Shown here in pieces: positions 4,193 to 59,634 of a stretch of DNA of 64,000 nucleotides. Every line of letters starts with the position of its first letter. Within the stretch, counting starts at the first letter, position 1. The DNA comes from Mactra quadrangularis (taxonomy: Eukaryota > Mollusca > Bivalvia > Venerida > Mactridae). Where the stretch lies: the NCBI GenBank assembly GCA_025267735.1, contig CM046298.1:41363917-41427916 (forward strand), in the 5' to 3' direction. The notes under the pieces were generated by a model. That model was not told the origin of the DNA and did no database searches. It saw only the letters and a list, made by a program, of their open reading frames with translations. A program made the translations under genes and the position numbers.

Positions 4193-4463
4193 GGATTTAA
4201 CGCCGTGTCAACACAATTTAGGTCATTTCACGGCGTCCAGCGCACCTAACCTAGCTTTTCTGGACCATTGTCTATAACCAGTACTCACCTTCCACAAGGC
4301 CGGAATCTTATTCATATTATCCAATCAATGGAGGAAAATCGACTTTATTGTCAAATTTTCATAGAAGGGTATAACCTCCCCGGGTGGGATTCGAACCCGC
4401 ACCCCTCGGGCACGATATTCCAAATCCCGGCGCGCTACCAACTGCGCTATCGACACGGGTTTA
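4193..4463 (-). mobile_element. tRNA-derived SINE, family 1 (minus strand)
   Basis: Read on the minus strand it starts with a tRNA-like head: A-box TAGCGCAGTTGG and B-box GGTTCGAATCC, about 45 bases apart. A ~110-base body follows, then the tail GACGCCGTGAAATGACC ... ACGGCGTTAAA. It matches the copies at 6534, 17735, 55101 and (diverged) 41767. The tail suggests a V-SINE-like family of the type described in molluscs, but that is a judgement from memory. The head would act as an internal polymerase III promoter. No clear target duplication is visible here. The head's open frame at 4268-4480 is not a gene. Confidence 0.85.
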
Positions 4464-6533: not shown

Positions 6534-6812
6534 ACCGGGTCGGTAGCGCAGTAAGTAGCGCGCCTGGATTTCGAATATAGTTTCGAAGGGAGTACGGGTT
6601 TGATTTCCACCCTTCCGTGAAATTTGACAATAATGTCAATTTTCCTCCATTAAGTTATACGGAGAAGTTTACGGCCTTGTCGAAGAGTAGGTGAGTACTG
6701 GTTATAGACAATAGTTCAGGAAAGCTAGGTTAAGTGCGCTGGATGCCGTAAAATAACCTAAAATTGAGCTGACCAGGCGTTAAGTCCAGCGCAAAGAAAT
6801 AAATAAGACATC
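6534..6812 (+). mobile_element. Diverged SINE, family 1
   Basis: The head has A-box GTAGCGCAGTAAG and a degraded B-box (GGGTTTGATTTCC). The body and tail (GAGTACTGGTTATAGACAA, AAAGCTAGGTTAAGTGCGC) align with the intact copy at 17735, with many substitutions and an altered tail (CAGGCGTTAAG). The B-box changes suggest an old, transcriptionally dead copy. Confidence 0.8.
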
Positions 6813-7560
6813 ACAGCTCCTACAATCGTTCAACAATAAGTTACAAGTTAAAAAGTGCATACCTCGAACATGATTGATGTCATGCCAAATCCAATCATTT
6901 CTCATGTAACAGTTGCTTGTGACAGCATCAATTGTATAATGTATAATCATGTTACTTAATAGAGCACATGATTTTCTTGCGTTTTGTACTCTGTCATATG
7001 CCATGTTAGAATGTCATATAAATATGGTTCACTTCTGCATGACTGGACAATTAACATTGTTCGAATGGTTATTTTTTATCTAAAATTTACGTTTGTTCTA
7101 TCGAGAGCGTGGACATGCCACGTGACTAGATGCTACACGTCCAAGCAAAGTACTTGGTAGTCCCATTATTAAGTAGATCTACTCAATATAATCATATTAT
7201 GATTTGCAAAATTTTATGGCAACTTCAGTGGTCAAGATAAGTACTTAGTTGTTCAGAAAGGTGTATGGTACTGAATACAGCGAAACTGGCTAAATAGTGG
7301 TTACAATTTTTTAAAAGTTGCCCCATTCTCTCTATAACCCTCGTTGAATTGGTCGATAGAAGGTCCTATAGAACAATGGGGCTAATATGTTTCAAAATTA
7401 TCTTTGAACTTGAGAGCAAGACGCGTGTAAATGATATTTGTCTAGCGTTTTCATTTTTATTTCATATTTATTCCTTCCCATAGCCAACCAAGTTTGACAA
7501 ATCCACCTACAATGGTCCAAATTTACAATTAAATCACGTGATGTCCTAGATACCAGCCAA
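6813..7560. other. Intergenic AT-rich DNA
   Basis: No supported gene or repeat. Short minus-strand frames around 6780-7004 overlap the SINE tail and have no coding signal. Confidence 0.45.
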
Positions 7561-7928
7561 TTAGGGACTTTGGTCAGTTATCTTTCCCTGATATAATCTG
7601 AAGCAATCCTATTGGTAAGTAGGTCCTTACAATTGGAATCCTCGGATTTTATCATTGAATTCATATATGTAAAGATAACGAAATATTTCATGTAATACCT
7701 TTTTTGTTAATTAGGATATTAACAGATGTGATGAAATTTAGATAGTTCATTACCCTAAAAATACTTAGCTTGAATTTCAAACAAATTAAATCATTTACAA
7801 AAAAGTTATTTAAGATTAATTTTGGCAAATTAACATTAAAAAGTAAGGGTAATACCCGAGTAGTCAAACTAATGGGACCTACCAATTTGAAGAGTATACA
7901 AGGGGAAATAACTGACTAAAGTCCCTTA
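7561..7928 (+). mobile_element. PIF/Harbinger-like MITE, copy 1
   Basis: The element proper is 7564-7925 (362 bp), flanked by TTA on both sides (7561-7563, 7926-7928). Its ends are GGGACTTTGGTCAGTTATCT on the left and the inverted AACTGACTAAAGTCCC on the right. Imperfect inverted similarity continues for about 85-90 bp (AAGTAGGTCCTTAC, TCGGATTTTATC on both arms). A 3-bp TTA/TAA duplication with G-rich termini is the signature of the PIF/Harbinger superfamily. There is no transposase, so it is non-autonomous. A second copy at 34151-34514 lies in the opposite orientation. Confidence 0.85.
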
Positions 7929-8204
7929 TTAGCAACATGTAAGATTAGACGTTGTCATTCTCGGCGCAGTTGGTTATTGAATGAATAATTCCTGATATAC
8001 TGGGTCTGAGACAAAAACCTAAACAATAGTCCGAGATCAAGAGTTCAACATCGATCCCTGTCAATGAGACACTTGTAGGATAATGTGATTATATGTACGA
8101 TTTATGTAATAAATATGTATACATTGTCAACAAACGGAGATCAAGCGTTTAACGCCGATTCCTATTGATTAGACACTTTTATTTTTATTTTATTTTTCAA
8201 TTGT

Positions 8205-10794: not shown

Positions 10795-11945
10795 GTATCG
10801 CCATTCCTCAGGTAAGTATCTTTCCTTAAATATCTTGACATTCACAAATTGTCAACTATAAATTTGTTCCATCTCTTATGTAGGTTTCTTTCTTATAATA
10901 AGTGTACATTCACACATTATTAGCTATCACTTGGTACAAATCATCAGGTAAGTATCTTTGCTCCTATATCTTGACATTCACACATTGGCAACTATCACAT
11001 TGTTCCATACGTCATGTAGGGTTCTTTCTTATAATAAGTTTACAATTACACATTTTCAGCTATCACTGGGTGCAATTTCTCATGTAGATGTCTTCCTTAA
11101 CTCAATTGACAATAACAAATGTCAGCTATCAATTTTTACAATTCCACATGTAGGTGTCTTTCTCATAATAAGTTTACATAGTTACATTCTCAGCAATCAC
11201 TATGTACAATTCCCCAGGTAAGTATCTTTGCTCCAATATCTTGACACTTACAATGTGTCAATTATCCCATTGCTCAGTCCCTCATGAAGAATTATTTTTC
11301 ATAAAAAGTTTACACTCACACAATGTTTGCTATCACTAGGTACCAATCCTCATACAGGTTTCTATCACATAATAAGTTTTTATTCATACTATCTCTGCTG
11401 TCACTTAGTACCATTCCTCAAGTAGAGGGTATCCTCATATTAAGTATACATTCACACAATGTCAACTGTCACTATATATCATCCCTCATGTAGTTACTTA
11501 TCTTATAATAAGTGTTCATTCCTCAGGTAACTGTCTTTCCTCCAATATTTTGACATTCACACATTGTCAAGTATCAATTGGCACCATCCTTCGTGTAGGT
11601 TTCTTTCTTATAATAAGTGTACAATACACATTCTTAGCTATCACTTGGTACCATTCCTCAGGTAGGTATCATTCCACCAATATTTTGACATTTACACATT
11701 GTCAACTATAAATTTGAACCATCCCTCATGTAGGTTTCTTTCTTATAATAAGTGGACATTCACACATTCTCGGCTATCACTTGGTACAATTCCTCAGGAA
11801 AGTATCTTTGCTCCAACAACTTAATATTCACACATATTTCAACTATTACTTTGTTCCATACGTCATGTAGGGTTCTTTCTTATGATAAGGTTACATTTAC
11901 TCATTGTCAGTTATCACTGGGTGCAATTTCTCATGTAAGTTTCTA
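10795..11945 (+). repeat. 68-bp degenerate tandem array (136-bp dimer)
   Basis: About 17 units with a 68-bp period (for example CCATTCC at 10801, CCATCTC at 10869, CAAATCA at 10937). Two unit types alternate: one carries TCAGGTAAGTATCTTT and TCTTGACATTCACACATTG, the other CATGTAGGTTTCTTTCTTAT and AATAAGTTTACA. The dimer of 136 bp is therefore the higher unit. CAGGTAAGT, a consensus splice donor, recurs at 10809, 10945 and 11215 with variants in between. Divergence is high, so the array is old. Frames of 61-113 codons inside are repeat translations. Confidence 0.88.
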
Positions 11946-12640: not shown

Positions 12641-13074
12641 AAACCATAGTAAAATATTTTTTAAATTAGATAGTAATATTTTATAGATTACAATGATCAA
12701 TGTTTCAATCTATTAATGAATTAATAAGTGATGTATTAAAATCATAGCAATTTTTTATTGATTACAATGATCAATGTTTCAATCTTTTAATGAATTAATA
12801 AGTGGTGTATACATTAAAATCATAGCAATAAACTAAAAAAACCTACTTGCATGTACATAAACCATATATGCTTTACATTGCTAATAGTTCTTTCGTATGT
12901 TTTTGGCTTTTTGGTACAAAGATGTCATCATCGGCATTGCTAAATTACGAAAACTCTCATTTTTAAATACATGTAGATAGCACTGATGATGCGAGATAAC
13001 GATGTACTAAAAAACAATGATTGCTAAATTTGATACTTATTTCAAACCGCTTGACAAAGACTTTCGAGCAATCT

Positions 13075-13395
13075 AGTGAAGGACTCATATTTCTGGGGGG
13101 ATAACTAGATCGGAGTCAAATAAAAGAGTGAAACTTCTGAGCAATCTAGTGAAGGGCCCAGTTTACTGGGAGGATAGCTAGATCGGAATTTCACACCCGA
13201 AGTGAAACATAATTCTGAGCAATCTAGTGAAGGGCCCAGTTTACTGGGAGGATAGCTAGATCGGAATTATACACTCAAAGTGAAACATAATTCTGAGCAA
13301 TCTAGTGAAGGGCCCAGTTTACTGGGAGGATAGCTAGATCGGAATTATACACTTTAAGTAAAACAAAATTCTGAGCAATCTAGTTATAAGTTCAT
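13075..13395 (+). repeat. 78-bp hairpin-forming subarray, block 1
   Basis: Four units; GCAATCTAGT recurs at 13141 and 13219, so the period is 78. The first unit is diverged. Each later unit has nested dyads: CCCAGT-TT-ACTGGG inside ATCTAG ... CTAGAT, so a single strand could fold into a stable cruciform or hairpin. Confidence 0.92.
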
Positions 13396-13944: not shown

Positions 13945-14340
13945 AATCTAGTGAAGGACCCATATTTTTTTTGGGGGGGATAACTAGATCGGAGTCAAAC
14001 AAGTGAGTGAAACTTCTGAGTAATCTAGTGAAGGGCCCAGTTTACTGGGAGGATAGCTAGATCGGAATTTCACCCTCAAAGTGAAACATAATTCTGAGCA
14101 ATCTAGTGAAGGGCCCAGTTTACTGGGAGGATAGCTAGATCGGAATTATACACTCAAAGTAAAACATAATTCTGAGCAATCTAGTGAAGGTCCCAGTTTA
14201 CTGGGAGGATAGCTAGATCGGAATTATACACTCAAAGTGAACATAATTCTGAGCAATCTAGTGAAGGGCCCAGTTTACTGGGAGGATAGCTAGATCGGAA
14301 TTATACACTTTAAGTAAAACAAAATTCTGAGCAATCTAGT
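13945..14340 (+). repeat. 78-bp hairpin-forming subarray, block 2
   Basis: Five units, the first diverged and containing a T/G-rich insertion. The four typical ones keep CCCAGTTTACTGGG and the flanking ATCTAG/CTAGAT dyad; one has the change GGTCCCAG that breaks a pair in the longer GGGCCC symmetry. Confidence 0.92.
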
Positions 14341-14899
14341 GATAAGTTCATAGTACTAAGTCTTGCTAGGGTGTTATTTACATTTTTTTTATGAACAATA
14401 AAACACATCATTTTGATGATAAATTTCTGCCATGTATATATCATTACTATTTTTTATTAAACTAGTATGTTGTTTTTTTAGTTAAATGTTTAAGAAATAT
14501 TTTTTCTCTGTTTCTCACTTTTATTACATTGAAGTGTTGAAGTTTAGTATACACTTATCTTTGAAACCATTCAAAACATTATTTGAATTAGATAGTAATT
14601 TTTTATTGATTACAATGATCAATGTTTCAATCTTTTAATGAATTGATAAGTGGTGTATACATTAAAATCATAGCAATAAACTCAAAAAACAAACCTACAT
14701 TTGCATGTACATAAACCATAGATACTTTACTAATAGTTATTTCGTTTTTGGCTTTTTGGCACATCATAGGAATTACTAAATTACGAATAACCCTCATTTT
14801 TAAATACATGTAGGTAGCACTAATGATGCGTGATAACGATGTACTAAAACAACTATGATTGCTAAATTTGATACTAATTTCAAACCACTTGACAAGCTT

Positions 14900-15220
14900 C
14901 GAGCAATCTAGTGAAGGACCCATATTTTTGGGGGGATAATTAGATCGGAGTCAAACAAGTGAGTGAAACTTCTGAGTAATCTAGTGAAGGGCCCAGTTTA
15001 CTGGGAGGATAGCTAGATCGGAATTTCACCCTCAAAGTGAAACATAATTCTGAGCAATCTAGTGAAGGGCCCAGTTTACTGGGAGGATAGCTAGATCGGA
15101 ATTTCACACTCAAAGTGAAACATAATTCTGAGCAATCTAGTGAAGGGCCCAGTTTACTGGGAGGATAGCTAAATCGGAATAATACACTTTAAGTAAAACA
15201 TAATTCTGAGAAATCTAGTG
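14900..15220 (+). repeat. 78-bp hairpin-forming subarray, block 3
   Basis: Four units, one fewer than block 2. The last typical unit carries GCTAAATCGG in place of GCTAGATCGG, disrupting the outer dyad. Confidence 0.92.
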
Positions 15221-15394
15221 ATAAGTTTATAGTACTAAGTCTTGCTAGGGTGTTATTTACATGTAGTTTTATGAACAATAAAAACACATCATTTTGATGA
15301 TAAATTTTTGCTATGATTAAATTACATACATTATTATATATTATTACTCAGTTTAAATGAATATTTTTATTATTTGATGAATGTTTTGTAAGTA

Positions 15395-16439: not shown

Positions 16440-18060
16440 GAATACTTATTTCTTAATTATTGTTTGACACAAACAGCAAAGTTATATTGTTTGATCCTTA
16501 TAAACAAACATTAACGTCAAGTTCATTTTCGTCGCTGTATGACATACATGTATATGCCCAAAGGTATGAATTTGATGAAATCAAAACATCTTTTGTTCTG
16601 CTAAGTTTATTTCTTTCTTTGTCTCTGTATGACATACAAAGCATATCCATAGGAAATTTGGTCATTGAAAAAACACAACTGTTGAAAATATGTATTTTCT
16701 TGTCACTGTTTGACACAATAGAAAATTTTACATATGTTTTATGCTTATACACAGGCATGACTGTTTAGATCATTTCTTTCTTTGTTGATGTTTGAAACAT
16801 ATGCTAAAAGGTTAGTATTGGATAAAATTCAAACATCACTTTCTGCTGTTTTTATTTCTTTCTTTGTCGCTGTATGACATACAAAGCATATCCAATAGAA
16901 AATTTGGTCATCGAAATAACACAACTGTTAAACTGTTTCTTTCCCCTGTTTGGCACAAATAGCAAAGTTATATATTTGATCTTAAAACTCATACATAACT
17001 ATTAAGTTCATTTCTTTCTTTGTCGCTGTATGACACACATGCTAAAAGGTAAGTATTTGATCAAAATCAAACATCACTTTCTGCTGTTTTTATTTCTTTC
17101 TTTGTCGCTGTATGACATACAAAGCATATCTAATAGGAAATTTGGTCACCTAAACAGTCACAACTGTTACAAATATGTATTTCTTTCTCCTGTTTGGCAC
17201 AAATAGCAAAGTCATATATAATTGATCTTTATACACATACATAACTGTTAAGTTCATTTCTTTCTTTGTCGCTGTATGACACACATGCTAAAAGGTAAGT
17301 ATTGGATAAAATTCATACATCACTGTTTGCTGTTTTCATTTCTACCTTTGTCGCTCGCTGTATAACATACAAAGCATATTTATATATGTTTTATCCTTAT
17401 CATACAGACATAACTTTTAAGTTCTTTTCTTTCTTTGTCCATGTTTGACACATATGCTAAAAGGTAAGTATTTGATCAATTCAAACATCACTTTCTGCTG
17501 TTTTCATTTCTTTCTTTGTCGCTGTATGACATACAAAGCGTATCCAATAGGATATTTGGTCACCTAAACAAAAAAACAACTGTTGCAAACATGTATTTTC
17601 CCCCTGCTTTGCACAAATAGCAAAGTTATATATATTTGATTTTTATACACAGGCATGACTGTTAAGTTTTTTTCTTTGTCGCTGCATGACACATATGCTA
17701 AAAGGTAAGTATTCGATCAATCCAAACACCACTTACCCGGGTCGATAGCGCAGTTGGTAGCGCGCCGGGATTTGGATACTCGTGCCCGAAGGGGTGCGGG
17801 TTCAAATCCCACCCGGGAAGGTTATACCCTTCCATGAAAATTTGACAATAATGTCGATTTTCCTCCATTGATTAGATAATATTGAGAAGTTTCCGGCCTT
17901 GTGGAAGGGTAGGTGAGTACTGGTTATAGACAATGGTCCAGGAAAGCTAGGTTAGGTGCGCTGGACGCCGTGAAATTACCTAAATTGTGTTGATACGGCG
18001 TTAACTCCAATAAATAAATAAATAAAACAAACACCACTTTCTGCTGAGTCATTTCTTTCT
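16440..18060 (+). repeat. Degenerate tandem array with about 240-bp period, split by a SINE
   Basis: Units contain TTTCTTTCTTTGTCGCTGTA, GCTAAAAGGTAAGTATT, CAAACATCACTTTCTGCTG and TTGGCACAAATAGCAAAG. TTAAGTTCATTTCTTTC recurs near 17006 and 17252; other spacings are about 170 and 240, reflecting deletions. Roughly six units are visible, the last interrupted by the SINE at 17735-18027. AAAAGGTAAGT, a donor-like motif, recurs at each unit. The overlapping sense and antisense frames at 16460-16768 are shadows. Confidence 0.82.
17723..18039 (+). mobile_element. Intact SINE, family 1, with 12-bp target duplication
   Basis: The element is 17735-18027, flanked by CAAACACCACTT at 17723-17734 and 18028-18039. 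The head has A-box GATAGCGCAGTTGG and B-box GGTTCAAATCCC. The body has TTGACAATAATGTCGATTTT and GGCCTTGTGGAAGGGTAGG. The tail has GACGCCGTGAAATTACC, ACGGCGTTAAC, then a short (AAATA)n-like run. It has inserted into a unit of the 240-bp array, whose normal sequence (CAAACATCACTTTCTGCTG) resumes after the second duplication, so it is younger than that array. This is the best reference copy in the window. Confidence 0.95.
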
Positions 18061-20905: not shown

Positions 20906-20920
20906 TAATAAAATATAAGC

Positions 20921-21291
20921 TACAGTACTCACGAAAAGTTTGGAGACATTTTTACTTTGTAGGCCTATTGAATAGCTTTTATCTAAAATTAGAAAAATGT
21001 TTATTTTAAAATGCTTTTTAGTTTAGCTTTATTTTTTAGTCATCATTATTAGTAGAGTCTTCAAAAATAGCATAAAAGCTGTGTTATAGAAAATATTTAC
21101 AATAAACATGGTTTTGGAGGCTTAAGGATATCAGATGCTGAATCTTATGGATAAATTGTGTTTAGGAAATTTATTTTCATTTTACACAAACCATGCTTAA
21201 ATATATCAACAATAATGATCCTACAAAAATAATTATTAAAATTCAAGAATTGTAGTGAACATCTTTTGTCTCTAAACTTTTGGTCACAATA
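20921..21291 (+). mobile_element. Tc1/mariner-like MITE, copy 1
   Basis: The element is about 20923-21289 with TA on both sides. The left end is CAGTACTCACGAAAAGTTTG followed by GAGACA; the right end carries TGTCTCTAAACTTTTGGTCA, its degenerate inverse. The interior (AATATTTACAATAAACATGG) matches the copy at 42333 in reverse. TA duplication and this TIR style fit Tc1/mariner. No transposase. Confidence 0.75.
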
Positions 21292-33499: not shown

Positions 33500-34060
33500 A
33501 GAGGGCATAGCCGAATGGGAACAATTGGGGTGGCATGGCCGAATGGTTATAATTGGGGTGGCATGGCCGTATGGTTACAATTGGGGTGGCATGGCCGAAT
33601 GGTTACAATTGGGGTGGCATGGCCGTATGGTTATAATTGGGGTGGCATGGCCGTATGGTTACAATTGGGGTGGCATGGCCGAATGGTTACAATTGGGGTG
33701 GCATGGCCGTATGGTTACAATTGGGGTGGCATGGCCGAATGGTTACAATTGGGGTGGCATGGCCGTATGGTTATAATTGGGGTGGCATGGCCGAATGGTT
33801 ACAATTGGGATGACATGGCCGTATGGTTATAATTGGGGTGGCATGGCCGAATGGTTATAATTGGGGTGGCATGGCCGAATGGTTACAATGTTGGACCGAT
33901 AATATCAATGTATAGCCAGCTCCGTGCTGGTTAGAATCCCATCCAAAACCTATCCCGTTGTTTCCTTGAGCAAGAAATTTTATCTTACTAGCTCAGAACT
34001 GGGTGACCAGGAAGTGAACTAGAAAGTAATCAATCGACATTCTGAGAATTTGTTTCACAA
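33500..34060 (+). mobile_element. tRNA-Ser/Leu-like SINE with amplified A-box region
   Basis: At 33860-33957 there is a complete tRNA-like head. It has TGGCATGGCCGAATGGTTAC (A-box core TGGCCGAATGG), ATGTTGGACCG, a long variable-arm-like stretch, then GGTTAGAATCCC (B-box). The layout resembles class II tRNAs such as Ser or Leu (GGCCGAGTGGTTAAGG...GGAC). The body has TTTCCTTGAGCAAGAAATTT, AACTGGGTGACCAGG, similar to the Deu-type SINE domain. Upstream the A-box segment is repeated as a 28-bp array. The direct repeat CTCCG(C/T)CGGA...TATAGTT flanks the whole (33472 and 34104). Confidence 0.65.
33515..33892 (+). repeat. 28-bp minisatellite made of A-box units
   Basis: About 13 head-to-tail copies of ATTGGGGTGGCATGGCCGAA + TGGTTACA. 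Units alternate loosely between GAATGG and GTATGG and between TTACAA and TTATAA, suggesting a 56-bp dimer step. Every unit contains TGGCCG(A/T)ATGG, a near-consensus polymerase III A-box (TRGCNNARYNGG). The 28-bp unit is open in several frames; the 120- and 83-codon frames here are artefacts. Confidence 0.95.
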
Positions 34061-34147
34061 TCGAGCTGAAATAGAAAAATATTAAAATTACAATAAAATG
34101 TGGCTCCGTCGGAGTATAGTTATAAAAGAGTTCTGCTTGAGCATGAA

Positions 34148-34517
34148 TAAGGGACTTTAGTCAGTTATTTCCCTTTGTATACTCTTCAAATAGGTAGGTC
34201 CTATTAGTTGGATGACTCGGATTTTATCCTTACTTTTCAATGTCAATTTGCCAAAGTTAATCTTAAATAACTTTTTTTTGTATATCATTTAATTTGTTTA
34301 AAATTCAAGCTAAGTATTTTTATGGTAGAGAACTATCTAAATTTCATCACTTCTGTTAATATCTTGATTAACAAGAAATATATATTAGATGAAGTATTTT
34401 GTTATCCTTACATAGGACTTCAATGATAAAATCCGAGGATTCAAACTGTAAGGACCTACTTACCAATTGGATTGCTTCAGAGTTTATCAAGGAAAGATAA
34501 CTGAAAAAAGTCCCTAA
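34148..34517 (-). mobile_element. PIF/Harbinger-like MITE, copy 2
   Basis: The element is 34151-34514 (364 bp), flanked by TAA at 34148-34150 and 34515-34517. It is the reverse of the copy at 7564: left end GGGACTTTAGTCAGTTATTT, right end AACTGAAAAAAGTCCC. The two copies differ at many positions, so both are old enough to have diverged, but termini and duplications remain clean. Confidence 0.85.
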
Positions 34518-34746
34518 TTATTAGAAAATCGTAAGTTTACGACAGGTATGTGCATATTTTTCAGAGTTCTACATACTGTACTAGTATGTAATCTATTATT
34601 AATCAGACAAAGATCACCTTGTACGCTGCCTTCATTCGTTATATTTTTCTCAATTGATTTAAACAAAACTGTTCTCATCGTACGACAGTCTAGTTTTATC
34701 GCATTTATCATTCACACTTGAGTACAAAATTCAGTTACAATTATGC

Positions 34747-41656: not shown

Positions 41657-41766
41657 ACTTTAACTGATTTCTGTCGTGAGTTACGTTTAAAAAAAAACAT
41701 ACTTTTGTGAAGTTTGGCTAAAAACAAATTTAGGTAGTTTATGTACGTAACTATTTTTTTTAATTC

Positions 41767-42040
41767 AGTTTAACGCCTAGTCAGCGCAAATTATTGTCAT
41801 TTTACGGGGGCCAGCTCTCACCTAACCTAACTTTTCAGAACCATTGTCTATAACCATTACTTATATACCCTTCAACATCCCGGACACCTTCTCTATATAA
41901 CATTTTTAAAAGACGAAACTGACTCTATTGTCGAATTTTCATATAAGGTTATAACCCGCCCAAACCAGAAAACCCCTTGAGTACATTAGGTTTGAAATCC
42001 TGACCGTATCGTACTGTGCCACGTGCCCGTCAAACATTAT
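41767..42040 (-). mobile_element. Diverged SINE, family 1 (minus strand)
   Basis: Tail first: TTTAACGCCTAGTCAGCGCA, CCTAACCTAACTTTTC, CCATTGTCTATAACCA, then TTGTCGAATTTTCATA. The tRNA head is heavily altered (TTTGAAATCCTGACC), with no usable B-box. One of the oldest copies in the window. Confidence 0.7.
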
Positions 42041-42330: not shown

Positions 42331-42707
42331 TACAGTACCCACCAAAAATTTGGAGACAAAAGAAATTTAACAAACTTCTTAAAATTCAATGATTGATTCG
42401 TTAGAACCATTGTTTTTAATATACTTAATATGGCTGGGTATAAAATGGAAGCAAATTTCATGAAAGCATCAACATTTATTGGACTCAGCATCTGACACCC
42501 TATAGCTTCCAAAACCATGTTTATTGTAAATATTTTCCATAACGTAGCTTTTATTCTATTTTGTAGTCTCAGTTAAAATCAATGATAACCAAAAGATAAT
42601 GCATGCAAAACTTCAAAGCATTTCACAATTTACAGTTATCAAGTTATGATAAAGCCGTTCAGTAAGCCTACAATATGAAAATGTCTCCATTTTTTATGGG
42701 TACTGTA
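42331..42707 (-). mobile_element. Tc1/mariner-like MITE, copy 2
   Basis: The element is 42333-42705 (373 bp) with TA on both sides. The left end CAGTACCCACCAAAAATTTG, GAGACA and the right end TGTCTCCATTTTTTATGGGT, ACTG are imperfect inverses. The interior reads as the reverse of the 20923 copy (AACCATGTTTATTGTAAATA). Better preserved than copy 1. Confidence 0.85.
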
Positions 42708-42734
42708 TGTTATACTGTGCTATTACAAAGGTGA

Positions 42735-43046
42735 ACAACTGAGTTTTTACATGGGGTTTCCCCATGTTAAGTAGCTGACTGAGGCAAATCCTCATTAAAA
42801 TTTGTCGCGGACGATTACATTCGGCTGCGCGTTCATGTGCAAGTAAATGGATAATTACTACTTCAAAAAATGTAGTCCGCAATACGCGTTAACAAGCAGA
42901 CAATGAGAAGTACATTGTACATCTTTATCTAATCTGACTTATGTAAGGTAAAGCCCATTGTATCACTTCCGTTTGTTGTATAAACCATAATTACATATTC
43001 CAACAAAATCCCATGGCTGACAGCGCTATTAGCGCTTTGATTTGTC
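42735..43046 (+). mobile_element. About 310-bp dispersed repeat, copy 1
   Basis: It starts TTTTTACATGGGGTTTCCCC, ATGTT (an ACATGGGG-TTT-CCCCATGT hairpin), then AAAATTTGTCGCGGACGATT, ACATTCGG, ACGCGTTAACAAGCAGAC, and ends GACAGCGCTATTAGCGCTTT, GATTT. It matches 46964-47262 reversed. No TIRs at the ends and no protein. Class unknown. Confidence 0.7.
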
Positions 43047-45914: not shown

Positions 45915-46963
45915 GTACGTACTGATATACATGTGTGTACTTTTATTACCTCCGAGACCGGAAAGCAACTAAGATGTACATAGTAAACAACATTTCTGTC
46001 TATTGTGTTAAAACAAATGATTTCTTTCATTAACCTCTGTTACAGGCGATGTTAGTTTGCCATGTGATAAATGTACTTATAATTCATAGGTAACCTAATT
46101 CATTGGATCGTACTTATTTTGCTTACATTGTTACAGTAACACTATTACAACAGCCACTAACATCCTATGTCAAAATGGCTTTTTATATTGAGTTAACGGT
46201 TGTTGAAAGCTGAACGGGTAAGTTCCATGGACAAAAATCATGACACTGGCGAATTCATTTGATTTGAATTTAAGGAGCCTGTTGATTAAAGAAGGTTGTT
46301 AAAAGGTCGTGTTGGGAGATATCAGTGTATCATGTATAATATAAGTTCATTAACATTGTGATCGATTAAATACCATGTATCTTGTTGTCACCAATGGCAA
46401 CCAATTAGTTATGGTCAATACAACGTAGTTTTACACTTGGTTTGTTACTGGAATGGTACGTCTTAAGGTAGCATTCCATGTGGCAATTTATAGTACGGAA
46501 ATAGCGATTTTTAAACCAAACCAGATGCTGGCGAATCGGCACTTTTTTAAGAAAGTTTTTATTCTCTGTTATTTTTTGTCTTAGATGTGACCATGAAAAA
46601 CATGAGAATTGATTATGATAATCACTCTTTTGCATTCAGTGCAAAATGGTAATCATCATGCATCAGGGATTTATGAAATAACATTATGTTGCAAAAGTAT
46701 TATAGAAAACTTTTAAGAGAACAGAACAGAACAGAACATATTATTAATAAGGCCTTAAATATGTACATATTTATTAACCGTAAACAATTTTACATCATAT
46801 AAAAGGTCAAAAGTTAATATTTATGTATCATGTATATTAAGAGAAAAAAAACACCGAAAAAGGTAAAACGCAATTAAGATATTACCCCACTCCAATATGT
46901 AAATTGGTGCAGTTTTACGCAAATAATTTGTAATAATAACATTGTAATAATGACATTGTAAAT
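45915..46963. other. Intergenic DNA with a retroelement-like pentamer tail
   Basis: AGAACAGAACAGAACAGAAC at 46719-46738 is a (GAACA)n tract followed by TATTATTAATAAGGCC, resembling the reverse of a SINE or LINE tail seen in molluscs. No coding sequence nearby. Confidence 0.4.
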
Positions 46964-47262
46964 CAAAGCGCCGATTGCGCTGTCAGACATAGGATTTTGG
47001 TAGAGTATATGGCTGTATACAACTCATGGAAGCGATACAAGGTACCTTTAACTTACATAAACTAGATAAGATATACACGTGCTTCTTATCGTCTGCTTGT
47101 TAACGCGTAACGCGAACTATATTAATTGCAGTGGTAATAATCCTTTTATTTGCGCGCGCACAACCGAATGTAATCGTCCGCGACAAATTTTGATGTGAAT
47201 TTGCCACAGTCCAATACTAAACATGGGGAAACCCCATGTAAAAATTAACAGAAAAAAAATAA
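46964..47262 (-). mobile_element. About 310-bp dispersed repeat, copy 2 (minus strand)
   Basis: Reverse of 42735-43046. It keeps GCGCCGATTGCGCTGTCAGA, GCTTGTTAACGCG, ACCGAATGTAATCGTCCGCG, ACAAATTTTGATG and the hairpin ACATGGGGAAACCCCATGT. Middle parts have diverged more than the ends. Confidence 0.7.
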
Positions 47263-51325: not shown

Positions 51326-51479
51326 AGCTTAATTATGATACATTCACCAGTGACCGACTTGAACCTATTTTACCTGAGGGTTGTTTTAAAGGTCACCACA
51401 AGGTTGTTTTCTCGATCTATTAGTTGATATCATTGTAGAGTTTATTGGAATAAATATTGTTTACAAAAGCTATACATTT

Positions 51480-54400
51480 AGGTCTGTGAAGTTAGCTATC
51501 TATTGTCTATTCTCTATTCAAAAGTCTATTCGCACAATAGACAGCTATGTATTGAGAAATCTATTCATTCAGAAATCTATTCGCATTTACTGTATACATA
51601 GGCATAGGTAAGTTCAAAAATCTGTACAAAAATCTGTTCACAAAATGCCGAAAAGACAGCTGTCTATTCGGAAATCTATTCAGAAGTCTATTCGAAAAAA
51701 GTCACTAGTGCAATCAGACATATTTAAAAGTCTTTTCATAGAAAACATAAATAGACAAATGTCCATTCAAAAGTCTATTCCGAAGTCTATTTGAAAAAAG
51801 CCAGTAATGCAATCAAACAGATTTAAAAGTATTTTCGTGGAATACGTAAAGATGCAAATGTCCATTCAAATGTCTATTCCGAAGTCTATTCGCAAATTTA
51901 TGTATATGCATTCAAAATGAGGGTGAAGTCTTTTATAGAATTTCGAATAGAGAGCTGTCCATTTAAATGTCTATTCAGAAGTCTATTCGCAAAATCTGGT
52001 AAATGCTTTCAGAATGAGTCAGAACTCTATTATGCAGTAGCGAATACACAGCTATCCATTCAAAAGTCTGTTCAGAAGTTAATTTGCTAAATCATATATA
52101 TGCAATTAGAATGCGTCTGAAGTCTTTAATTAAGTTGCGAATAGATATATGTCGATTCAAAAGTCTATTCAGAAGTCTATTTGCAATATCATGTATAAGC
52201 AAGGACGGAAGTCCATTCAGAAGTATATTCGAAAAAAGCCTGTAATGCAATCAAACAGATATCCATTCAAATGTCTTTTCAAAAGTCTATTCGAAAAATC
52301 ATATATAGGCATAAAGAATGTGTCTGTAATCTATTTTAAAGTTGTAAATAGACAGATGTCCATTGAAAGATTTATTCAGAAGTCTATTTGCAAAATCTGG
52401 TGAATGTATTCAGAATGAGCCAGAAGTCTATTATAGGTTTTTGAATAGAGAGCTGTCCATTCAAAAGTCTATTCAGAAGTCTTTTCGCAAAAATCATATA
52501 TATGCAATATGAATGTGTCTGCAGACTGTTATAAAGTTGCAAATAGACAGATGTCCATTCAAATGTCTATTCAGAAGTCTATTCGCAAAAAAATCTGGTA
52601 AATGCGTCCATAATGATCCAGAAGTCTATTATAGATTTTCGAATAGAGAGCTGTCCATTCAAAAGTCTATTCAGAAGTCTTTTCGCAAAAATCACATTTA
52701 TGCATTATGAATGTGTCAGTAGACTGTTATAAGTTGCAAATGGACAGATGTCCATTCAAAAGTCTATTCAGAAGTCTATTCACAAAATATGGTAAATGCG
52801 TCCATAATGATCCAGAAGTCTATTATAGATTTTCGAATAGAGAGCTGTCCATTCAAAAGTCTTTTCAGAAGTCTTTTCGCAAAAATCATATATATGCATT
52901 ATGAATGTGTCTGTAGACTGTTATAAAGTTGCAAATAGACAGATGTCCATTCAAAAGTCTATTCAGAAGACTATTCACAAAATCTTGTAAATGCGTCCAT
53001 AATGATCCAGAAGTCTATTATAGATTTTCGAATAGAGAGCTGTCCATTCAAAAGTCTTTTCAGAAGTCTTTTCGCAAAAATCATATATGTGCATTGTGAA
53101 TGTGTCTGTAGACTGTTATAAAGTTGCAAATAGACATATGTCCATTCAAAAAACTATTCAGAAGTCTTTTCGCAAAAATCATATATATGCATTTTGAATG
53201 TGTCTGTAGACTGTTATAATGTTGCAAATAGACAGATGTCCATTCAAAAGTCTATTCAGAAGTCTATTCACAAAATCTGGTAAATGCGTCCATAATGATC
53301 CAGAAGTCTATTATAGATTTTCGAATAGAGAGCTGTCCATTCAAAAGTCTATTCAGAAGTCTTTTCGCAAAAAATCATATAAATGCATTATGAATGTGTC
53401 TGTAGACTGTTATAAAGTTGCAAATGGACAGATGTCCATTCAAAAATCTTTTCAGAAGTCTCTTCGCAAAAATCATATATATGCATTATGAATGTGTCTG
53501 TAGACTGTTATAAAGTTGCAAATAGACAGATGTCCATTCAAAAGTCTATTCAGAAGTCTTTTCGCAAAAATCATATATATGCATTATGAATGTGTCTGTA
53601 GACTGTTATAAAGTTGCAAATAGACAGATGTCCATTCAAAAGTCTATTCAGAAGTCTTTTCGCGAAAATCATAAATGTGCATTATGAATGTGTCTGTAGA
53701 CTGTTATAAAGTTGCAAATAGACAGGTGTCCATTCAAAAGTCTATTCAGAAGTCTATTCGCAAAATCTGGTAAATGCGTCCATAATGATCCAGAAGTCTA
53801 TTATAGATTTTCGAATAGAGAGCTGTCCATTCAAAAGTCTTTTCAGAAGTCTTTTCGCAAAAATCATTTTTATGCATTATGAATGTGTCTGTAGACTGTT
53901 ATAAAGTTGCAAATAGACAGATGTCCATTCAAAAGTCTATTCAGAAGTCTTTTCGCAAAAATCATATATATGCATTTTGAATGTGTTTGTAGACTGTTAT
54001 AAAGTTGCAAATAGACAGATGTCCATTCAAAAGTCTATTCAGAAGTCTATTCGCAAAATCTGATAAATGCGTCCATAATGATCCAGAAGTCTATTATAGA
54101 TTTTCGAATAGAGAGCTGTCCATTCAAAAGTCTTTTCAGAAGTCTTTTCACAAAATCAAATATATGCATTATAAATGTGTCTGTAGACTGTTATAAAGTT
54201 GCAAATAGAGAGATGTCCATTCAAAAGTCTATTCAGAAGTTTATTCACAAAATCTGGTAAATGCGTCCATAATGATCCAGAAGTTTATTATAGCTTTTCG
54301 AATAGAGAGCTGTCTATTCAAAAGACTTTTCTGAAGTATTTTCGTAACATCATATTAATATATGCTTTAAGAATTTGTCTGAGGTCTATTATAAAGTAGC

Positions 54401-54665
54401 GAATAGACAGATGTCCATTCAAAAGTCTAATCGGAAGTCTATCCACAAAATCTGGTAGATGCGTTCAGAATGTGTCAGAAGTCTATTTTAGAGTTTCGAA
54501 TAGAGAACTGTTCATTCAAAGTCTATTCAGAAGTTTATTTGCAAATTATTTTAATGCATTTAGGATGCGTCAGACATTTATTATAGAGTAGCGAATAGAC
54601 AGCTGTCCATTGAAATGTCTTTTCAGAAGTCTATTCGCAAAACTATGTTTATGCATTCAGAATGT
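51480..54665 (+). repeat. Left foldback arm: about 32 units of 98 bp
   Basis: The first ~400 bp are irregular short repeats of TCTATTC; after that units settle at 97-98 bp (AATAGACAG at 53521 and 53619). Each unit has a constant part TCCATTCAAAAGTCTATTCA, GAAGTCTATTCG with an inner 12-bp step (ATTCAAAAGTCT, ATTCAGAAGTCT). It also has one of two variable parts: type A (CTGGTAAATGCGTCCATAAT, GATCCAGAAG) or type B (ATATATGCATTATGAATGTG, TCTGTAGACTG). A and B often alternate, giving a ~196-bp step. The frames of 60-90 codons (IQKSIQKSFRK, CPFKSLFRSLFAK) are translations of the units. Confidence 0.95.
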
Positions 54666-54692
54666 GTCAGATGAAATTGTGATAGACCTGCC

Positions 54693-54960
54693 ATGTCTAC
54701 TGAAGTTTGCGTGGTTTTGCCTGAACTAAGTAAGTTTTTTAACCTCTCGTAAACATAAATGAATCTCCCGAATGTTTCCGCAATTTTAGATGAAGATCGA
54801 ATTTGCCTTTTCATATCGTCGATTTCTTGCAGATTCTGTAAACCAAGTCGAGCCGGTAAAGCCTGGTTCAAACAAGATTACTGGAACCGTAGATTACACA
54901 AGTGCAATTGCAAATTCGGTAACCAGTGCTGGTTCTATTCGAGGACGCGCCATTGATTGA
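54693..54960 (+). CDS. Possible two-exon small gene in the foldback spacer
   Basis: Exon 1 is 54693-54729: GCC before the ATG (G at -3), 12 codons MSTEVCVVLPEL plus one base. A consensus donor A|GTAAGT follows, then a 103-bp intron ending CGATTTCTTGCAG. Exon 2 is 54833-54960: joined in phase it gives N, then SVNQVEPVKPGSNKITG, TVDYTSAIANSVTSAG, SIRGRAID, stop; 54 codons in all. Exon 2 is about 46% GC in an AT-rich setting and has a protein-like composition. Unspliced, an ATG at 54793 keeps the same frame for 56 codons. No signal peptide, membrane segment or known domain. Alternative: a captured 3'-terminal exon of a host gene, or chance. The 82-codon antisense frame (54623-54871) is probably a shadow. 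Confidence 0.38.
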
Positions 54961-55087
54961 GACATGCTAATATTTCGAAGTTTGTAGGCAGAAAAACCTT
55001 TGAATTTCATATTAAATCGTAAAAAAATTGTTATTATCCACAAGAAAAATAAGCGCCAAAACAAAACTACTAAGTCAGCAATTTACA
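54961..55087. other. Foldback spacer, AT-rich
   Basis: Nothing recognised between the possible gene and the SINE. Confidence 0.4.
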
Positions 55088-55401
55088 TTTAAGTGATAAA
55101 TTTATAAATTTATTGGAGTTAACGCCGTGTCAACACAATTTAGGTCATTTCACGGCGTCTAGCGCACCTAACCTATCTTTCCTGGACCATTGTCTATAAC
55201 CAGTACTCACCTACCCTTCCACAAGGCCGGAAACTTCTCCATATTATCTAATCAATGGAGGAAAATCGACATTATTGTCAAATTTTCATTGAAGGGTATG
55301 ACCTCCCCGGGTGGGATTCGAACCCGCACCCCCTCGGGCACGAGTATCCAAATCCCGGCGCGCTACCAACTGCGCTATCGACCCGGGTTTTAAGTGATAA
55401 A
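55088..55401 (-). mobile_element. SINE, family 1, inserted in the foldback spacer, with 13-bp duplication
   Basis: The element is 55101-55388 on the minus strand, flanked by TTTAAGTGATAAA at 55088-55100 and 55389-55401. The head (GGGTCGATAGCGCAGTTGGT, GGGTTCGAATCCC), body and tail (GACGCCGTGAAATGACC, ACGGCGTTAAC) are well preserved and close to the 17735 copy. It inserted after the foldback spacer existed. Both overlapping plus frames (55190-55485) are artefacts. Confidence 0.95.
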
Positions 55402-55765
55402 GCCTGTTTAAATGATTATTTTTGTTTTATAAGAAACACAATTTTACACCATTTTGTTAATTTTTTTGACGGTGCTACAGCGTGACGTCAATCTTGGTGT
55501 TTTCGCACAGGTTCGTGCTTGTAGTATATATAATGTAAATGTATTCATAACCGAAAGGAAAAAGGTAGACTAAATCAATTAGAAGAATTTATCTCATGCC
55601 AGTAGTTGTCTCTGAAAGTCCGTTGGACTTTATTTTAAAACAAAATCAGCTACCGAAAGAAGACTTACTACCAGGAGAAAAATAGAAGTATTGCTTTAAA
55701 TAGAAAAAAAATTAGACCTGAGTGCTTCAAAGAGCATGTCAATTCACTAACCCAGAAAATTATTC
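55402..55765. other. Foldback spacer, right part, with a CRE palindrome
   Basis: A short plus-strand open frame (about 46 codons, containing TVLQRDVNLGVFAQ) lies at roughly 55425-55565 with a possible donor CAG|GTTCGT at 55510; it is too weak to call. TGACGTCA is at 55483-55490. Confidence 0.35.
55483..55490. promoter_or_regulatory. CRE-like palindrome TGACGTCA in the foldback spacer
   Basis: A perfect CREB/ATF consensus inside the unique spacer of the foldback element. It could drive spacer transcription but no start site is identifiable. Confidence 0.2.
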
Positions 55766-58700
55766 CGACACATTAAAAATGCATATGAATGATTTTGCAT
55801 ATAAAATTTCTGATAAATAATTTGAAAATGTTATTTTAACACTTTACAAAAAGTAACTTTATTAAAAGACTTTTGCTACATACTGAATAAAAGCTACTGT
55901 TTGCGAACAGATTTCAGAATTGGCATATGAATGGGTAGCTGTCTAATCGCAATCCTTTCATATACTTCTGACACAATCTACAAGCATTTACTTGATTTTG
56001 CAAAAAGACCTCTGAATAGACATATGAATGGACAGCTGTCTATTCGCAACTCTAAAATAAACATGTGACACATTCTAAATGCATAATAAGATTTTGCGAA
56101 TAGACTTCTGAATAGACATTTGAATGGACAGCTGTCTATTCGCAACTCTATAATGGACTTCTGACACATCCTTAATGCATATAAAAGATTTTGCGAATAG
56201 ACTTCTGAATAGACATTTGAATGGACATCTGTCTATTTGCAACTTTATAACAGTCTACAGACACATTCATAATGCATATATATGATTTTTGCGAAAAGAC
56301 TTCTGAATAGACTTTTGAATGGACATCTGTCCATTTGCAACTTTATAACAGTCTACAGACACATTCATAATGCATATATATGATTTTTGCGAAAAGACTT
56401 CTGAATAGACTTTTGAATGGACATCTGTCTATTTGCAACTTTATTACAGTCTACAGACACATTCATAATGCATATATTTGATTTTGCGAATAAACTTCTG
56501 AAAAGACTTTTGAATGGACAGCTCTCTTTTGGAAACTCTATAATAAACTTCTAACACATTCTGAACGCATTTACCGATTTTTTCGAATAGACTTCTGAAT
56601 AGACTTTGAATGGACATCTTTCTATTCGCTACTTTATATCAGAATTCAGCCACATTCTAAATGCATATGCATATGATGTTGCGAATAGACTTCTGAATAG
56701 ACTTTTGAATGGACAGCTCTCTATTCGAACTCTATAATAGAATAGACTTCTGAATAGACATTTAAATGGACATCTGTCTTTTTGCAATTTTTAAATAGAC
56801 TACAGACACATTCTTTAAGCATATATATGATTTTGCGAATAGACTTCTGAATAAACTTTTGAATGGACAGCTCTACAAACACATTCATAATGCATATATA
56901 TGATTTTTGCGAAAAGACTTCTGAAAAGACTTTTGAATGGACAGCATTCTATTTGAAAATCTATAATAGACATCTGGATCATTATGGACGCATTTACCAG
57001 ATTTTGCGAATAGACTTCTGAAAAGACTTTTGAATGGACATCTGTCCATTTGCAACTTATAACAGTCTACCGTCACATTCATAATGCATATATATGATTT
57101 TTGCGAAAAGACTTCTGAATAGACTTTTGAATGGGCATCTGTCTATTTGCAACTTTATAACAGTCTACAGACACATTCATAATGCATATATATGATTTTT
57201 GCGAAAAGACTTCTGAATAGACTTTTGAATGGACATCTGTCTATTTGCAACTTTATTACAGTCTACAGACACATTCATAATGCATATATATGATTTTTGC
57301 GAAAAGACTTCTGAATAGACTTTTGAATGGACATCTGTCTATTTGCAACTTTATGACTGTCTACAGACACATTCATAATGCATATATTTGATTTTGCGAA
57401 TAAACTTCTGAAAAGACTTTTGAATGGACAGCTCTCTTTTGGAAACTCTATAATAGACTTCTAACACATTCTGAACGCATTTACCGATTTTTTCGAATAG
57501 ACTTCTGAATAGACTTTGAATGGACATCTTTCTATTCGCTACTTTATATCAGAATTCAGCCACATTCTAAATGCATATGCATATGATGTTGCGAATAGAC
57601 TTCTGAATAGACATTTGAATGGACAGCAGTGTATTCGCTACTGTTTGTAAGTTCTGACTCATTCTGAACGCATTTTACAAATTTTGCGAACAGACTTCTG
57701 AATAGACTTTTGAATGGACTTTTGAATGGACATCTGTCTATTTGTAACTTTATAACAGTCTACAGACACATTCAAAATGCATATATATGATTTTTGCGAA
57801 AAGACTTCTGAATAGACTTTTGAATGGACATCTGTCTATTTGCAACTTATAACAGTCTACAGACACATTCATAATGCATATATTTGATTTTGCGAAAAGA
57901 CTTCTGAATAGACTTTTGAATGGACAGCTCTCTATTCGAAAATCTATAATAGACCTCTGGATCATTATGGACGCATTTACCAGATTTTGCGAATAGACTT
58001 CTGAATAGACTTTTGAATGGACATCTGTCTATTTGCAACTTATAACAGTCTACAGACACATTCATAATGCATATATATGATTTTTGCGAAAAGACTTCTG
58101 AATAGACTTTTGAATGGACTTCTGTCTATTTGCAACTTTATAACAGTCTACAGACACATTCATAATGCATATATATGATTTTGCGAAAAGACTTCTGAAT
58201 AGACTTTTGAATGGACAGCTCTCTATTCGAAAATCTTTAATAGACTTCTGGATCATGATGGACGCATTTACCAGATTTTGTGAATAGACTTCTGAATAGA
58301 CATTTGAATGGGCATCTGTCTATTTGCAACTTTATAACAGTCTACAGACACATTCATAATGCATATATATGATTTTTGCGAAAAGACTTTTGAATAGTTT
58401 TTTGAATGGACATCTGTCTATTTGCAACTTTATAACAGTCTACAAACACATTCATAATGCATATATATGATTTTTGCGAAAAGACTTCTGAAAAGACTTT
58501 TGAATGGACATCTGTCTATTTGCAACTTTATTACAGTCTACAGACACATTCATAATGCATATATTTGATTTTGGCGAATAAACTTCTGAAAAGACTTTTG
58601 AATGGACAGCTCTCTTTTGGAAACTCTATAATAGACTTCTAACACATTCTGAACGCATTTACCGATTTTTTCGAATAGACTTCTGAATAGACTTTGAATG

Positions 58701-59625
58701 GACATCTTTCTATTCGCTACTTTATATCAGAATTCAGCCACATTCTAAATGCATATGCATATGATGTTGCGAATAGACTTCTGAATAGACTTTTGAATGG
58801 ACAGCTCTCTATTCGAACTCTATAATAGAATAGACTTCTGAATAGACATTTAAATGGACATCTGTCTTTTTGCAATTTTTAAATAGACTACAGACACATT
58901 CTTTAAGCATATATATGATTTTGCGAATAGACTTCTGAATAAACTTTTGGATGGACAGCTCTCTATTTGTAAATCTAAAATAGACTTCTGACTCATTCCA
59001 ATTGCATTCATCAGATTTTCAAATAGACTTTTGAATAGACATTTGAATGGATATCTGTCAATTCCAAACTTAATAATAGACTTCAGACACAGTCTTAAAG
59101 CACATATATGATTTTGTGAATAGATATCCGAATAGACTTTTGAATGGACATTTGTCCCTGGCATTTTGGGAATAGACATCTTGCTCATTCAGATTGCATC
59201 ACTATGTTTTTGCGAATAAACTTCTGAATAGACTTTTGAATGGACTTTTGTCTCTTTGCGTATTCCACGAGAAGACTTTTAAATCTGTTTGATTGCATTA
59301 CTGGCTTTTTTCGAAAAGACTTCGGAATAGACTTTTGAATGGACATTTGTCTATTTATGTATTCTATGAAAAGACTCAAAAATGTGTTTGATTGCACTAG
59401 TGACTTTTTTCGAATAGACTTCTGAATAGATTTCCGAATAGACAGCTGTCTTTTCGGCATTTTGTGTACAGATTTTTGTACAGATTTTTGAACTTACCTA
59501 TATCTATGTATACAGTAAATGCGAATAGATTTCTGCATGAATAGACTTCTCAATACATAGCTGTCTATTGAGCGAATAGACTTTTGAATAGAGAATAGAC
59601 AATAGATAGCTAACTTCACAGACCT
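55766..59625 (-). repeat. Right foldback arm: about 38 units of 98 bp, inverted
   Basis: The same ~98-bp units as the left arm but on the opposite strand (GACTTCTGAATAGACTTTTG, AATGGACA). The inner edge, 55766 to about 55980, is degenerate; the outer edge mirrors the left arm's start. It carries three copies of a local higher-order segment absent from the left arm: GCTCTCTTTTGGAAACTC at 56521, 57431 and 58609, each followed by TATATCAGAATTCAGCCACA and GCATATGCATATGATGTTGC. A longer stretch is shared by 56461-56875 and 58562-58955. Frames here are unit translations. Confidence 0.95.
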
Positions 59626-59634
59626 TATACATTT

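Follow-up and report, generated by a model that had tools for sequence, protein, structure and literature searches.

Within a 64,000-nucleotide stretch of the genome of the bivalve Mactra quadrangularis (assembly GCA_025267735.1, contig CM046298.1; the whole stretch is called the window hereafter), two long arrays of ~98-bp units face each other across an interior of ~1.09 kb, which raises the question of whether this structure is a transposon of the foldback type and, if so, how such an element moves and how its arms change. The contig that holds the window is 47 Mb long, in an assembly of 979 Mb and 447 contigs. By comparing the structure with its relatives in the same genome, we conclude that it is very probably (roughly 0.8) one copy of a young, non-autonomous, cut-and-paste foldback-type family of DNA transposons, for which we infer a mover of the Mutator type.

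The element and its boundaries

The element comprises positions 51480-59625 (8146 bp), between two exact copies of TATACATTT. Its main parts are as follows.

51471..51479, unstranded: left 9-bp target site duplication TATACATTT, read directly
51480..51896, plus strand: left outer terminal inverted repeat (TIR), starting with AGGTCTGTGAAG; 94.5% identical over 417 bp to 59209-59625, with 100% identity of its first 221 bp at 40 scored loci of the genome
51480..54668, plus strand: left arm, with 31 delimited units, mostly 97-99 bp, and a truncated last unit
54669..55755, unstranded: interior including a short interspersed nuclear element (SINE), ~1.09 kb, present in 18/18 copies read
55756..59625, minus strand: right arm, opposite in orientation, with two degenerate inner units (about 55756-55937) and then 38 delimited units
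59209..59625, minus strand: right outer TIR, ending with CTTCACAGACCT; same right-end class as the copies L023, L025 and L026
59626..59634, unstranded: right 9-bp target site duplication TATACATTT, read directly

First, we asked how specific the boundaries are. TATACATTT occurs three times on the plus strand of the window, two of these being the flanks of the element, and four times on the minus strand. When 9-mers were compared in pairs at the spacing of the flanks, one pair out of 55,800 was identical, and by its spacing this is the TATACATTT pair. The two terminal 20-mers of the element are exact reverse complements of each other, and a search with the 17-base terminus allowing up to three mismatches gave two matches, both of them element ends (mean of 0.09 in shuffled sequence; at least two matches in 1 of 100 shuffles). 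Inspection of AGGTCTGTGA showed no palindrome. A search for the exact 21-base terminus in viral_contigs and genome_contigs, neither of which is a eukaryote collection, gave no match.

Second, we compared the two ends in register. Identity was 0.97, 0.97, 0.94 and 0.91 in the first four 100-bp blocks and 0.686, 0.76, 0.765, 0.521, 0.794 and 0.475 in those beyond, indicating that the outer matching domain is nearer 400 than 220 bp. Thus, a preliminary description of this locus was right about the 9-bp duplication, the inverted termini and the arms of ~98-bp units in opposite orientation; its near-identical outer ends are also there, only that their extent, given as ~220 bp, was too short.

In both arms, the units are mostly 96-99 bp long and carry the motif GTCYATTC in a strongly oriented manner: 55 occurrences on the arm strand against 2 reversed in the left arm (shuffled mean 0.17, both orientations pooled), and 79 on the minus strand against 2 reversed in the right arm at 55945-59625 (shuffled mean 0.29, pooled likewise). 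The first copy of the motif starts at base 26 of the element.

Copies of the element in the host genome

We then searched the genome with the 221-bp left end. From 1062 first-look candidates 40 were scored, and all 40 showed 100% identity; they correspond to 22 single ends, among them the left end of the window copy, and to nine pairs in inverted orientation at distances of 8.1 to 10.8 kb. Eighteen copies were read, namely the window copy and 17 others (the nine pairs and eight forward-strand single ends; labelled L0xx), and inverted arms were present in 17/17 of the latter. Of the 18 copies, 14 could be placed at both ends; the duplications that flank them are all different, 13 being exactly 9 bp and one 8 bp long. 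In five short forms, the duplication directly follows the terminus: TATACATTT in the window copy, TATTGAATA in L009, ACAAATGAA in L023, CAAATTTAA in L025 and TAATTTTGA in L026. Moreover, the interior measures 1089-1093 bp between anchors in 18/18 copies, three pieces of it being 97.9-100% identical to the window copy, and pairwise divergence between the 18 interiors is 1.07% on average and 2.1% at most.

Since arms of this kind are tandem arrays, the structure might also be an inverted duplication of a minisatellite, either real or made during assembly. However, many copies share the same ends and interior between different duplications, and the arms are unequal in both length and sequence. 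On these grounds we rejected an assembly artefact, and regard an inverted duplication of either kind as having practically no chance of being right. Conversely, finding these copies raises our confidence that the element transposed: long tandem-repeat inverted ends occur together with duplications at independent insertions that have the same ends. In the search of the host genome suggested in the preliminary description, other copies were seen to share the terminus, and all 14 placed copies have an 8- or 9-bp duplication. Its reading as a foldback transposon that is non-autonomous, has arms of minisatellite units and makes 9-bp duplications agrees well with many same-ended copies, different duplications and a common interior in which no transposase is recognised.

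Two side observations concern individual loci. In L024, the motif array of the right arm stops after about 1.5 kb of the stretch read, so that this copy is probably truncated or interrupted. Beside the L013 insertion lies a different tandem array (GTAAATGTGCATGTTATACCGGGCACT and variants), in the last ~700 bp of the stretch L037.

Candidate transposase and superfamily

As to the mechanism, the transposase would come from another locus and most likely belong to the Mutator superfamily (Mutator-like elements, MULEs); it would bind the GTCYATTC motifs repeated through the arms, pair the two ends and insert the element with a 9-bp stagger. Both the 8-10 bp duplication and the TIRs of more than 100 bp by which MULEs are recognised (PMC5225508) are found in this family, and the same paper names subterminal tandem repeats, along with long TIRs and duplications of 8-10 bp, as typical of Aedes MULEs. 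An affinity to Rehavkus and Mutator would thus stand on two features, the length of the duplication and the architecture, which suggest that the mover is probably a Mutator-type transposase.

Several observations weigh against this reading of the family. No partner transposase was found in the genome, and none of its MULE matches could be tied to the family: by coordinates, each of the 43 matches to the MULE domain PF10551 above cut-off is more than 20 kb away from all 40 scored termini, and eight of these 43 loci, read with 1.5 kb on each side, showed neither an arm array nor similarity to the element. Furthermore, the window contained no empty site, and four of the 18 copies (L021, L024, L027 and L028) had no right end within the stretch fetched. 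At the same eight loci, the terminus was absent except for one 12-mer with two mismatches. The PF10551 matches demonstrate the presence of MULE domains in the host and do not show that these move the foldback family. Within the interior, no transposase was recognised either, as no Pfam family scored above cut-off with 10 of the 19 open reading frames (ORFs) of at least 35 aa and with spliced and short peptides.

The same foldback family could be moved by a transposase of another superfamily, be it hAT, P/Galileo-like, Merlin or some other. Foldback structures do arise in different lineages, Galileo being of P type (PMC3688188, PMC3573991), and the lack of a genomic MULE match tied to the family fits with this as well. 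The duplications, however, are exactly 9 bp in 13 of 14 cases and 8 bp in one. Usual lengths are about 8 bp for hAT and P, 7 bp for Galileo and 8-9 bp for Merlin, and we consider a mover from outside Mutator rather unlikely.

Alternatively, the element could belong to Rehavkus proper. Rehavkus-1_TC of Tribolium is a comparable element of 9.5 kb with minisatellite units in its inverted termini (PMC10218199), the Rehavkus group combines 9-bp duplications with a minisatellite (PMC6446971), and the element studied here has both the minisatellite-associated inverted termini and the 9-bp duplication. In contrast, Rehavkus-1_TC has units of 164 bp, mostly as five and eight monomers, compared to ~98-bp units in numbers of 31 and more here. 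The PHD-finger transposase that defines Rehavkus is absent from the copies read and no partner was found, while the TIRs of the group are printed as 26-400 bp long, with the minisatellite before the 3' TIR only (PMC6446971). Membership of Rehavkus proper is therefore improbable, and we retain a foldback family with a probable Mutator-type mover.

Unit turnover in the arms

Across the 14 placed copies, left arms contain 31-58 units and right arms, up to the first terminus, 34-53. The 13 other placed copies were compared in register with the window copy. First, the outer units are in register, with a mean identity to the window copy of 0.964-0.999 for left units 1-9 and 0.966-0.998 for right units 1-7. 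Second, so are the innermost units, the last six on the left at 0.944-0.991 and the last four on the right at 0.985-0.999. Third, the register shifts between these outer and innermost units, as also seen in the layout of the left arm, where outer units in register with other copies are followed by a variable core of unit types A and B. Together, these data show that the arms change in length by gain and loss of core units, and that core units are gained and lost at a much higher rate than the interior accumulates differences.

In the right arm of the window copy, a 786-bp segment is duplicated (56090-56874 and 58177-58962, 96.3% identity), parts of it being found a third time at 57109-57627. 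Folding of single units was better than that of shuffled sequence in two of the four stretches tested (z of -2.17 and -2.55; 0.50 and -0.41 in the others), so that no general claim of hairpins is made.

Considering the window copy alone, one could think that the two inverted arms of a copy keep exchanging units and evolve as one pool. Its type-A units differ by 0.0583 within an arm and by 0.0587 between arms (25 units, p 0.41) and its type-B units by 0.0421 and 0.0547, respectively (10 units, p 0.10), an 808-bp tract is 95.7% alike between the arms, and a unit tree, poorly resolved with 36 of 57 inner branches open, did not cluster by arm. For these comparisons and the tree, five of 69 units (L00, R00, R07, R27 and R29) fell outside 90-112 bp and were dropped; unit L09 looks A-like by eye and does not count as type A under the motif used.

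The comparison across the 14 placed copies (1016 units, restricted to 94-101 bp) gave the opposite answer. The nearest relative of a type-A unit is found in the same arm of another copy, at a mean distance of 0.0047 and with 68% exact matches, whereas the distance to the other arm of the same copy is 0.0275, with 6% exact. Likewise, few variants are common to both arms, 5 out of 149 distinct ones in type A and 3 out of 77 in type B. Continuing exchange between the arms is largely refuted by this comparison, and we hold it to be very unlikely, while an occasional event may have taken place. Since the closest units are those of the same arm in other copies, the mixing of the arms must be old, and inheritance has since proceeded arm by arm.

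Long forms with a second right end

Nine of the placed copies (L010, L012, L013, L014, L016, L017, L018, L020 and L022) are long forms, in which the first right terminus is followed by AATTCTGAATGC (with one base different in L022) and by further arm units running in the same direction. In L013, a second terminus lies 1508 bp further on and is followed by ATCAAATCT, which is identical to the left duplication. In each of the remaining eight, 451 bp were read at the corresponding position and contained the outer terminus with one mismatch in 21 bases, together with the left duplication. Hence, a duplication borders the outer terminus in 9/9 long forms, eight of them exact over 9 bp, with 8 bp in L016 (or nine when the last base of the terminus is shared). 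All nine have their inner and outer ends separated by 1507-1509 bp, a constant distance while other parts of the arms vary. The boundaries expected from the preliminary description, where terminus and duplication coincide, are those of the short forms. Long forms are the exception, as the right terminus met first is an inner one and their duplication is located ~1.5 kb further out.

Right ends fall into three classes: (i) the window copy, L023, L025 and L026, (ii) L009 and the nine internal termini of the long forms, which are 99.2-99.6% identical to the left end, and (iii) the outer ends of the long forms, at 94-95% to the left end. By comparing the outer 1.5 kb of L013 in register over successive 200 bp, we found identities of 0.96, 0.94 and 0.925 to the right arm of the window copy, and a less close match of 0.94, 0.935 and 0.712 to the left arm of L013 itself. 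A tree of the interiors, poorly resolved overall with 12 of 15 inner branches open, places the long forms in one supported branch (99/98) together with the unplaced copy L027, L009 and the other short forms being outside.

These data indicate that the long forms are one young clade which moves with an outer, second right end. As for its origin, a short element would have come to lie within the right arm of a diverged relative, its own left end would then have been paired with the right end of this relative, and the composite of short element and outer arm would have moved as one. In the simplest history that we infer, a short form like L009 would have acquired its outer segment from a diverged relative, out of the right arm of the latter, and the two would then have spread together; the donor of this segment was not found. 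More generally, we tentatively propose, with slightly less than even confidence, that foldback arms grow by capture of ends and that a composite with an internal right terminus and ~1.5 kb of foreign arm founded a successful clade.

Comparison with known systems

No mollusc foldback element with such arms was among the papers listed in searches of open-licence literature. Several bivalve papers among them use the word foldback once or twice; in one (PMC5139131) it refers to a citation of Tetris, and PMC10294476 does not mention it. Judged from this literature, with known systems compared by their descriptions and not by sequence, it is plausible that the family is undescribed. On the same basis, the nearest printed likenesses appear to be Rehavkus-1_TC, Tetris, Tm1 and Muta1.

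Tetris/DAIBAM of the Drosophila virilis group are non-autonomous foldback elements too, with an outer TIR domain followed by internal tandem repeats, duplications of 8-10 bp and a suggested Mutator origin, but they have units of ~220 bp, of which the allelic copies described contain three or four (PMC4079207). Fluorescence in situ hybridization on fibres revealed expanded arrays inside Tetris (PMC4079207), so that the present family is not alone in having long arms. Tm1 of root-knot nematodes has tandem-repeat TIRs with unequal numbers of units and 9-bp duplications, its own partner being a Phantom-type MULE, and differs by its 14-bp units, 1-9 per TIR (PMC3169594). The marks of Tm1, that is CGGTTAA/CCTACCC, GGA and ~14-bp units, are not those of our element, which ends with AGGTCTGTGAAG and has units of ~98 bp.

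Muta1 and other long-TIR MULEs of Aedes aegypti resemble the family by an 8-9 bp duplication, 12-bp subterminal repeats and many non-autonomous derivatives, about 20% of which have interiors that can be aligned to host genes. Muta1 itself differs, with TIRs of 145 bp and nine repeats. FB/NOF of Drosophila has its own terminal sequence and units of 31 bp, as compared to ~98 bp here, and Galileo, also of Drosophila, makes 7-bp duplications, those of the present family being 8-9 bp long. Galileo is alike in its long TIRs with internal tandem repeats, whose length varies by repeat number, yet it has a P-type transposase and, in the F group, two or three ~210-bp repeats per TIR (PMC3573991). The Galileo transposase binds sites in these tandem-repeat TIRs (PMC3688188).

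The interior and its SINE

Within the interior, which is shared by all copies read, we distinguish the following features.

54693..54960, plus strand: possible small spliced ORF, weak; exon 54693-54729, donor GTAAGT at 54730
55088..55401, minus strand: tRNA-derived SINE, body ~55101-55388, with the 13-bp duplication TTTAAGTGATAAA
55483..55685, plus strand: possible promoter and 29-aa ORF, speculative; TGACGTCA at 55483, TATATATAATG at 55525, ATG at 55596

The SINE was absent from the preliminary description. Its tRNA-like head scores 24.1 bits with RF00005, below the gathering score of 29. It is found at the same interior position in 18/18 copies, with at least 97.9% identity, indicating that it entered the interior before the family spread and has been carried along with the element since. 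Further copies of the same SINE, 75-96% identical, are present in the window at 4187-4462, 6535-6788, 17735-18023 and 41755-41956.

The possible spliced ORF has two alternative acceptors, leading to 67 aa or, in a different frame, 54 aa; a spliced ORF as long as the 67-aa form or longer arose in 5 of 500 shuffles. No relative of the peptides was found, a weak miss given such short queries, PDB having been queried with just the 54-aa form. Two matches, one to Opy2 (E 0.062) and one to PF23705 (E 0.078), were below cut-off and counted as chance, and the 29-aa ORF had no Pfam match. Gene capture is a possible origin of the interior.

Other repeats in the window

Elsewhere in the window, three arrays of one 78-bp unit (13066-13384, 14014-14342 and 14970-15221) are spaced about 950 bp apart, and an array of 68-bp units at 10805-11944 has a higher-order period of 135-136 bp. 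A 48-bp tandem array at 749-1486 lies within a 243-aa ORF with a 16-residue repeat, the opposite strand also being open, and nearly 14 copies of a 28-bp unit (33504-33889), 93% alike, overlap open frames. Three pairs of inverted dispersed repeats were seen, at 7559-7930 and 34146-34519 (88% identity), 42744-43043 and 46960-47244 (78%), and 20914-21284 and 42341-42714 (73%). Ten ORFs elsewhere in the window had no Pfam match above cut-off.

Implications for the family

Long and repetitive as they are, foldback arms are difficult to assemble, and dozens of near-identical copies in an assembly of long contigs allow their turnover to be measured: the arms change by tens of units compared to about 1% of change in the interior. 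The clade of long forms offers a concrete instance in which an element acquired a new end, and with the SINE a retroposon has been multiplied by a DNA transposon. If foldback arms do grow by end capture, then arrays of oriented binding motifs would ease promiscuous pairing of ends, and the structure of the arms would drive the evolution of the family and carry along passengers such as the SINE.

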